The notes under the pieces are model-generated. The model worked only from the letters and a program-made list of their open reading frames with translations. It ran no database searches and was not told where the DNA came from. From positions 47,027-111,026 of the forward strand of contig SVLN01000002.1 in NCBI GenBank assembly GCA_015067925.1: 64,000 nucleotides of DNA, read 5' to 3'. Made by a program: the position numbers and the translations under genes. This document shows, in pieces, positions 15,117-16,647 of the stretch (the first letter of the stretch is position 1; each line of letters opens with the position of its first letter). Origin of the DNA: Oscillospiraceae bacterium. Its GTDB lineage: Bacteria > Bacillota > Clostridia > Oscillospirales > Oscillospiraceae.

Positions 15117-15620
15117 ATGAACGAGTCAATATTCATAAAGAAAACACATTCGCCTGTGGGGCCGCTGACGCTTGCCTGCACAGACGATTCCGTATGCGGC
15201 TTGTGGTTTGAGGATGCCAGATTCTATCTTTATGGCTTGCCACAGAACGTCATAGAAGCAGATCATCCCATGCAAAGAATTCTGGAGAATTGGTTGGAGG
15301 AATACTTCGCAGGGAATAAGCCGACAATTGATTTCCCAATCAGAACATTCGGATCTGCTTTCCAGCGTTCTGTGTGGGAACAATTAAGGAAAATACCATA
15401 CGGGCAAACAGTTAGCTACGGACAGATTGCGAAAGTCCTGCTTGATCAAACAGGCAAAAACGTCTCTGCCCGGGCTGTGGGCGGCGCTGTGGGGAGAAAT
15501 CCCTTGAGTATCGCAATTCCCTGTCATCGCGTGATCGGCGCAGACGGAAGCCTCACAGGCTATGGGGGAGGTTTGGATCGTAAACGGTTCCTGCTTCAGT
15601 TAGAAGGAATGATGTTATAA
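15117..15620 (+). CDS. ogt: Methylated-DNA--[protein]-cysteine S-methyltransferase
   Basis: IPCHRVIGADGSLTGYGGGLDRKRFLL active-site motif. Confidence 0.95.
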   Translation: MNESIFIKKTHSPVGPLTLACTDDSVCGLWFEDARFYLYGLPQNVIEADHPMQRILENWLEEYFAGNKPTIDFPIRTFGSAFQRSVWEQLRKIPYGQTVSYGQIAKVLLDQTGKNVSARAVGGAVGRNPLSIAIPCHRVIGADGSLTGYGGGLDRKRFLLQLEGMML

Positions 15621-15660
15621 AAAAAGAGCCTCCCGTTTGCGGGGTGTTCGTAAAACAGTT

Positions 15661-15698
15661 AATCCGACCTATGGTTGCAATCATAGGTCGGATTTTAT
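15661..15698 (+). terminator. Hairpin terminator
   Basis: aatccgacctatg...cataggtcggatt-ttat. Confidence 0.8.
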
Positions 15699-15727
15699 GT
15701 TACGCACTGGCGCGGCAGCGCCCAGGG

Positions 15728-15773
15728 CTCCCTTGTGTAAAGGGAGCTGTCAGCGAAGCTGACTAAGGGATTG
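15728..15773. repeat. Left terminal inverted repeat of the DUF559 element
   Basis: Reverse complement CAATCCCTTAGTCAGCTTCGCTGACAGCTCCCTTTACACAAGGGAG matches the right copy; contains two hairpins. Confidence 0.85.
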
Positions 15774-16118
15774 CTTTACCGCAGCATCGATATACTCACA
15801 AACTCCACGGAAATTTCTGCCGACTTCGTTGTTGGGAATACGAATGACTCTCAGACCATACCCCTCCAGAAAAGCGGTGCGGTCTGCATCTTTTTTAACG
15901 TTTCTATCCTCATAGTGTTGAGAACCGTCCAACTCAATGACGAGTTTTGCTTCTGCGCTATAGAAATCGGCGATATATTTTCCCAGCACCTTTTGCCTGG
16001 AAAAACGGACAGGGTAGGAACGCAGAAAATCATACCATAGGTGCCGTTCTTCCCTGGTCATTTCTTTTCGCAGCTGTTTTGCCAAAGGAACCAACTGCTT
16101 ATTGTACTTTGACTGCAT
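15750..16118 (-). CDS. DUF559 domain protein (endonuclease-like, Vsr/PD-(D/E)XK fold)
   Basis: MTREERHLWYDFLRSYPVRFSRQKVLGKYIADFYSAEAKLVIELDGSQHYE; start MQSKYNKQ with SD GGAGGG. Confidence 0.88.
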   Translation of the reverse strand: MQSKYNKQLVPLAKQLRKEMTREERHLWYDFLRSYPVRFSRQKVLGKYIADFYSAEAKLVIELDGSQHYEDRNVKKDADRTAFLEGYGLRVIRIPNNEVGRNFRGVCEYIDAAVKQSLSQLR

Positions 16119-16120
16119 GA

Positions 16121-16171
16121 CAATCCCTCCGTCACGGCTTACGCCGTGCCACCTCCCTTTACACAAGGGAG
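16121..16171. repeat. Right terminal inverted repeat of the DUF559 element
   Basis: CAATCCCTCCGTCACGGCTTACGCCGTGCCACCTCCCTTTACACAAGGGAG. Confidence 0.85.
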
Positions 16172-16258
16172 GCTTTGGTGCGGTGCGAAATCGCAGATCG
16201 CACAATACACCGAAAGGTGTATAGAAGTGCGCCCTTTATCAGTTCGACAAATTGGAAT

Positions 16259-16570
16259 TTACTCAACTGTAACACTTGTTGCTACAAGCAAGTTTGTTTG
16301 TTCTTCGATTGCACTTTCCACAATTACTTTATCTCCAATTTTGGCATTGGTTTCGCAATCCTTTGTAAGCCAAAGGCAAATATCTTCTTCATCAGTAGAA
16401 ATTGTGATGTATGCACGACTTTGTCTATTTCCTTCGTTTACAACACTCATTGCTCTATCGGTAACTGTTCCAGAATAAGTTTTTTCTGACCCTTCTACCA
16501 ACTTGCTACCACAACCAGCCAAAGCAAGTATGCAAACCAAAAGCAAGAGTAATGTAACCAATCTTTTCAT
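16259..16570 (-). CDS. Small predicted lipoprotein, unknown function
   Basis: MKRLVTLLLLLVCILALAGC signal peptide with lipobox. Confidence 0.7.
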   Translation of the reverse strand: MKRLVTLLLLLVCILALAGCGSKLVEGSEKTYSGTVTDRAMSVVNEGNRQSRAYITISTDEEDICLWLTKDCETNAKIGDKVIVESAIEEQTNLLVATSVTVE

Positions 16571-16647
16571 ACAATCACACTCCTTTGTCAAATTCCGATT
16601 TATCGATTTGTTTAATCATATCATATGGCTTCAATATATGCAAGAAC

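Follow-up and report, generated by a model that had tools for sequence, protein, structure and literature searches.

A small nuclease gene that takes its ribosome-binding site from one inverted repeat and its stop codon from the other raises two questions: Firstly, whether gene and repeats together form a mobile unit; and secondly, whether the nuclease acts on the very repeats that enclose it. The gene in question lies within a 64-kb stretch of DNA (hereafter, the window) on contig C34 of a 1.58-Mb Oscillospiraceae assembly that is 78% complete. It occupies positions 15750 to 16118 of the minus strand and encodes 122 residues (MQSKYNKQLVPLAKQ...AAVKQSLSQLR) that match the Pfam domain DUF559 with an E-value of 2.3e-29. 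The sequence at 15728-15746, CTCCCTTGTGTAAAGGGAG, recurs as its exact inverse, CTCCCTTTACACAAGGGAG, at 16153-16171 (19 of 19 bases), within arms (15718-15752 and 16147-16181) that are 83% complementary overall in an inverted-repeat search. Even with up to three mismatches allowed, this outer 19-bp palindrome has only these two copies in the window, and none appeared in 100 shuffles.

Each end of the unit comprises two hairpins and a short tag facing the gene. On the stop side, the outer hairpin (15727-15747; closing pair G-C, subtype A) is followed by an inner hairpin (15749-15763) and by the tag CAATCCCTTA (15764-15773, minus strand), which lies within the coding sequence; the stop codon TGA (15752-15750) falls inside the inner hairpin and the residues QSLSQLR are encoded by the repeat. 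On the start side, the tag CAATCCCTCC (16121-16130, plus strand) is followed by an inner hairpin (16133-16148) and an outer hairpin (16152-16172; closing pair C-G, subtype C). The nuclease ATG (16118-16116, minus strand) sits 2 nt to the gene side of the CAATCCCT tag that begins at 16121, and the Shine-Dalgarno motif GGAGGG, contained in the complement of the tag as the minus strand of 16125-16130, lies 6 nt from it. The original prediction, made from the sequence alone, had described the identical inverted termini, the start codon 2 nt inside the right repeat, the Shine-Dalgarno motif in that repeat and the stop in the left one, and direct reading and inverted-repeat search found all of these exact to the base. 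With its ribosome-binding site in the start-side repeat and its stop codon in the stop-side repeat, the gene in this lineage would be hard to move without its repeats. Between positions 15500 and 16700, Rfam returned no match to a known RNA element up to an E-value of 1. A defence system identity for the locus was considered and rejected, the matches from PADLOC being weak only.

The repeats are not confined to this unit. In the source genome the outer hairpin occurs at nine sites with no more than three mismatches: two form the unit, six form three inverted pairs that enclose no gene (contigs C4, C50 and C24), and one lies at the end of contig C13. In the gene-less pairs the tags face inward as they do in the unit, with 14 to about 66 nt between them. 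A second DUF559 gene of the same genome, on contig C2, is likewise bracketed by a two-hairpin repeat, of flavour CTCTCCC as opposed to the CTCCCTT of the window. Read outwards from the gene, a typical repeat consists of a tag (CCCTC, CTCTC or TCATC), the motif [A/C]GTC, the inner hairpin and an outer hairpin with a pyrimidine-rich 5' arm. These repeats are REP-like in the wide sense, being multi-copy, palindromic, tagged and mostly arranged as inverse pairs. Those of Deinococcus are built from the same kinds of part in another order, with the small hairpin outermost.

The two inner stems of the unit differ in sequence while retaining their pairing (GTCAGC-gaa-GCTGAC at 15749-15763, plus strand, against CACGGC-ttac-GCCGTG at 16133-16148), a change that had been described as covariation-like from this single pair and that proved real at the scale of the family. 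Across 134 distinct repeats, 77% have an inner stem of at least 5 bp, compared to 7% once the 3' halves are swapped between repeats, and 88 different inner sequences retain pairing of at least 5 bp, showing that the hairpin structure is conserved through compensating changes. Only two combinations of the base adjoining the tag and the base that closes the outer stem occur, A with G (63 times) and C with C (50 times), and these define the two subtypes; subtype C is commoner at the start side (25:10) and subtype A at the stop side (33:13). The tag mostly faces the gene (35:9 at the start side, 46:11 at the stop side) and correlates with the flavour of the outer stem, and wherever both sides have a full repeat (20 loci), the two ends are without exception of the same flavour. 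As a side observation from the 134 repeats, the G-rich tag resembles the outer stem's 3' arm in mirror image (GGGAGG and GGAGGG; GGGAGAGG and GGAGAGGG).

To what extent, then, do DUF559 genes and such repeats belong together? PF04480 matches occur in 34 of 121 genomes of the window's family, and 132 DUF559 loci were assembled from these genomes, from plasmid and phage loci and from one scan of named genomes, the last three providing the evidence from outside the Clostridia. Represented among the loci are Alphaproteobacteria, Deinococcus, Cyanobacteria and their non-photosynthetic relatives, and a CPR bacterium. For a score that ignores flavour, the 200 nt preceding the domain were aligned locally to the reverse complement of the 200 nt following it: scores of at least 18 were reached at 62 of 125 DUF559 loci, at none of 749 random positions and at 4 of 362 other ORFs of the same loci. 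In a scan for eight hairpin flavours, which were defined after inspection of the loci and on which the inverted-repeat score does not depend, a hairpin lay within 200 nt on at least one side at 113 of 132 DUF559 loci against 31 of 791 control positions, and the same flavour lay on both sides at 64 of 132 against 1 of 791; the sample leans towards relatives of the window protein, so that these rates are not bacteria-wide frequencies. At 19 of the 132 loci no hairpin of the scanned flavours was found, and at least eight of these carry another inverted repeat. The association of DUF559 with the repeats is thus well supported and far above chance. The two outcomes that would have spoken against the original prediction, a repeat missing from the rest of the genome and DUF559 genes that never accompany it, did not occur. 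The frame of gut Clostridia in which the original prediction had placed such hairpins was too narrow, for the association extends beyond them and involves several flavours of repeat.

Repeat flavour also follows the lineage of the nuclease. On a DUF559 protein tree, flavour changes 33 times compared to a mean of 69 and a minimum of 62 after shuffling, although resolution of the tree is poor, at about 103 columns, and the shuffles leave host relatedness in. Host relatedness was therefore addressed by comparing DUF559 copies within genomes. The repeats of the two DUF559 genes of the source genome are unlike each other (score 8), yet each gene's repeats match those found at its closest protein relative from another genus (scores of 34 and 58). 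Most other genomes with well-separated copies have the same pattern, with the exceptions of G001, G012, G065 and G118. Covariation of repeat flavour with nuclease lineage is thereby well supported.

The enzyme itself is related by profile to 3hrl, a DUF559 structure (6e-33), and to 3r3p (3e-6), which we take to be the homing endonuclease I-Bth0305I (PDB name 'Mobile intron protein'). The catalytic domain is shared with I-Bth0305I and the Vsr fold, but the DUF559 protein is free-standing and short, lacks the long DNA-binding arm and any intron or intein, and is bracketed by inverted repeats of its own. Residues E14, E52, D54, H58 and R70 are present in all 130 DUF559 sequences compared, and D41 and D67 in 98-99%; with a homologous catalytic domain and conserved acidic and histidine residues, the protein falls within the EDxHD/Vsr-like family. 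Ratios of dN/dS between 0.03 and 0.14 (window clade and a second pair) indicate that the protein is under strong purifying selection to stay functional, with its putative active site intact. A DUF559 gene has previously been assigned to the EDxHD homing endonucleases (PMC9403480).

Taken together, the most economical reading, and on balance a probable one, is that of a REP-like element whose homing-type DUF559 nuclease would act on the cognate repeats that bracket its own gene. Under such a mechanism, the nuclease would recognise the tag and hairpin and would cut or nick at the recognised repeat, whereupon host repair or replication would copy either the whole unit or a gene-less repeat pair. 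The latter would be the non-autonomous counterpart, comparable to a REPIN in relation to its RAYT.

Repeat abundance is linked to the nuclease, albeit imperfectly. The 121 genomes of the family contain 929 matches to the hairpin repeats, against 143 for a control, with a median of 8 repeats per genome in the presence of DUF559 and 1 in its absence; at least five repeats occur in 22 of 34 genomes with DUF559 and in 14 of 87 without (odds ratio 9.6). An alphaproteobacterial (Sphingomonas) plasmid carries its cognate repeat 25 times, against none for the backward control. The link is not absolute: repeat-rich genomes without a detected DUF559 gene include G097 (139 repeats) and G049 (87), some assemblies being incomplete, and G049 lacks a RAYT-like gene as well. 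Such genomes would be expected if DUF559 were a passenger, a selfish or useful nuclease (serving mismatch repair or defence, for instance) carried passively by repeats that something else moves. That the nuclease acts on the repeat is something we infer, and a DUF559 protein of C. crescentus, VsrA, has been connected with both DNA damage and the methylation of cytosine (PMC12907096). A passenger need not, however, come with lineage-specific flavours, yet flavour tracks the nuclease both across genera and within one genome; nor should it be singled out for bracketing, when the other ORFs of the same loci are so seldom enclosed and RAYT-like genes never are (below). Passive carriage is consequently considered unlikely.

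Less probable still is that REP transposases of the Y1 (HUH) type move these repeats in trans, as they do GTAG REPs, with DUF559 inside by chance. Genomes with divergent, RAYT-like Y1_Tnp genes do have more repeats (at least five in 16 of 22, against 20 of 99 without), and DUF559 and these genes each remain significant for repeat number after stratification by the other. Against this reading, DUF559 predicts repeat number independently of the RAYT-like genes (stratified permutation, p 4e-4), whilst canonical Y1 genes have no effect (p 0.86), none of 19 divergent Y1_Tnp genes is bracketed by these hairpins, and the window's own genome has no Y1_Tnp match, in an assembly 78% complete. The divergent Y1_Tnp genes have peculiarities of their own: those at L237-L254 encode a variable insert (for example VGADALGGP, VGAIHESP or VGATCGRP) that looks like a translated repeat, and inverted repeats of another type occur at four loci (L235, L236, L243 and L253).

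By analogy, the DUF559 unit resembles a RAYT-REP system in its workings but is not one itself. In both, palindromes with a short unpaired tag stand mostly in inverted pairs, the gene lies between two inverted repeats, gene-less pairs are found elsewhere in the genome, and flavour goes with gene lineage. The unit differs in its enzyme, a nuclease of EDxHD/PD-(D/E)XK type of about 120 residues without the HUH fold of Y1 transposases; in its double hairpin with a pyrimidine-rich 5' arm; in its tags, which are CCCTC, CTCTC or TCATC with [AC]GTC rather than GTAG; and in that RAYT-like genes of the same genomes lack these repeats. The REP/MITE-like interpretation first put forward, with its parallel to RAYT-REP, accordingly holds as a likeness, on account of the gene-less pairs and lineage-matched repeats, and fails as an assignment to the RAYT system itself, in view of the different fold and of RAYT-like genes that go without these repeats.

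That the unit is, or was, mobile is well supported, beginning with two operon junctions in Deinococcus. In the plasmid-borne hpa operon of Deinococcus NW-56, a DUF559 unit with inverted ends lies antisense between an oxidoreductase gene and hpaE; in that of D. proteolyticus, also on a plasmid, an antisense unit with inverted ends identical at 51 of 53 positions lies between hpaB and the oxidoreductase gene. Neither insert is present in D. ficus or D. deserti, and in D. radiodurans these junctions are free of DUF559. Inverted ends have thus been carried into unrelated sites, as in a transposon, and since the junctions entered have no visible repeat, transposition with carried ends fits better here than strict REP-to-REP homing. 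No target-site duplication was recognised when the Deinococcus junctions were examined by eye. An ordinary inverted-repeat transposon, in which DUF559 would itself be the transposase (by cut-and-paste or nick-and-copy, with carried ends and no homing step), would account for the near-identical ends of D. proteolyticus at a junction without such a repeat in other species and for the MITE-like gene-less pairs, but is improbable given that no target duplication was recognised, that the ends are conserved in fold and not in sequence, and that the catalytic family is known for homing and repair, not transposition. With MITEs and insertion sequences the unit shares inverted ends and versions with and without the gene; it departs from them in that no transposase fold was found, no target duplication was seen, and the sequence of the inner stem varies freely while its fold is kept.

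A second line of evidence for mobility comes from the cassette in which the unit is found. In the window, its outer boundary is marked by the motif E1, AACTGTTTTACGAACACC (15643-15660, minus strand), with a hairpin next to it on the inner side (15661-15694), recognised by comparison with loci of related genomes that carry the unit; locus comparison and pattern search identified the other boundary, E2, AAATTCCAATTTGTCGAACTGATAAAGGGCGCACTTCTATAC, at 16219-16262 (minus strand). The cassette also carries variable cargo, here a small lipoprotein gene (16259-16570, minus strand, if translation begins at the first ATG; the ORF as called mechanically begins at 16591) and at the second DUF559 locus of the source genome a MazG-like gene in its place. 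The E2-E1 context is common to both of these loci and to loci of several other Clostridia genera. Empty sites had been proposed as a check on the unit, and pattern search of the 121 genomes turned up copies of the context that hold nothing (L168), a solitary hairpin (L175), a gene cut short (L181), a gene-less repeat pair joined as GAGTTGT-CAATCCC (L180), or the full unit in one or the other of two flavours; these copies of one context lie at different places, and orthology of the sites is not proven. Elsewhere, two DUF559 copies of identical protein sequence (L092 and L095) lie at different places of one assembly. Contig C13 of the source genome (L001) stops within a repeat adjoining an E1 motif, and a further copy of the unit may therefore have been lost in an assembly gap.

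The core of E2, GGGCGCACTTCTATAC, was also seen by eye to precede MobA/MobL-like relaxase or associated ORFs (L157, L159, L163, L165 and L182), from which E2 may be an origin-of-transfer region. A classic integron attC site, by comparison, has no sequence support as an explanation of the E1/E2 context, E2 resembling instead the region upstream of relaxase genes.

The E. coli gene ycjD (L184 and L219; sapF-ycjD-fabI) also belongs to DUF559, and related repeats, CCCTCACCC..GGGAGAGGGTTAGGGTGAGGG, come after it. The query region matches a median of four places per genome and is covered to at least 80% in 3365 of 5426 genomes. Five sampled records that match only in sapF have efflux genes in place of ycjD. 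A clean insertion polymorphism was rejected for this locus, since strains without ycjD have the eefRABCD efflux operon there, an alternative also reported in PMC12817139.

It is worth noting that REPs are among the commonest bacterial repeats, and that RAYTs are, to our knowledge, the only enzyme family so far tied to their spread. The present observations suggest a type of small mobile DNA not described before, whose repeats travel with, and are probably spread by, a homing-type nuclease instead of a REP transposase. Among the 14 papers on DUF559 in the open full-text literature, which takes in neither subscription papers nor preprints, no listed title or abstract connects the domain with REPs or inverted repeats. 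Were a second enzyme family, unrelated to RAYTs, to travel with cognate repeats, DUF559 ('unknown function') would gain a concrete and testable role, many of the hairpin repeats seen in gut Clostridia, Sphingomonads and Deinococcus would be accounted for, and the question of how REPs arose would be open to experiment with a 122-residue protein and a 50-bp substrate.

One further class of repeat bears on how widely such an arrangement might apply. REPs tagged with CGTC are palindromes found in several phyla, mostly as head-to-head pairs, and apparently have no dedicated transposase (Di Nocera 2013, PMC3733652). Tagging, pairing and breadth of phyla are shared with the CTCCC-type repeats described here, but stem, loop and tag are unlike: the CGTC class is characterised by a terminal CGTC motif, an 8-9 bp stem and a CCA tail, an architecture from which the repeats here differ, and CCGTC occurs among them in one subtype only, between tag and inner stem. 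Among the control ORFs of the DUF559 loci, the best-scoring was a small GIY-YIG gene (L102:429-759) that lies between two inverted TGTCATTGCGAG repeats, beside an apparent gyrB. GIY-YIG genes in general were rejected as a second REP nuclease, none of 30 UPF0213-like genes of the family being bracketed, which confines the lead to the L102-type subfamily. On the strength of few loci, that subfamily is a possible dedicated enzyme for CGTC REPs. A broader proposal, that homing-type nucleases spread whole superfamilies of repeats (the CTCCC type by DUF559 of the EDxHD family, and CGTC/TGTC-tagged REPs by a GIY-YIG subfamily), is tentative and seems to us somewhat doubtful; were it true, REPs would be traces left by a number of nuclease families of separate origin, which have converged on a hairpin-bracketed life style. 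In a small sample, relatives of the L102 gene in Planktothrix, Rhizobium, Spirosoma and Azospirillum (L226-L229 among the loci) have CGTC/TGTC-type palindromes around them, a fifth relative, in Sinorhizobium, has a different repeat, and the gene of Azospirillum lipoferum is located between sufB and sufC.
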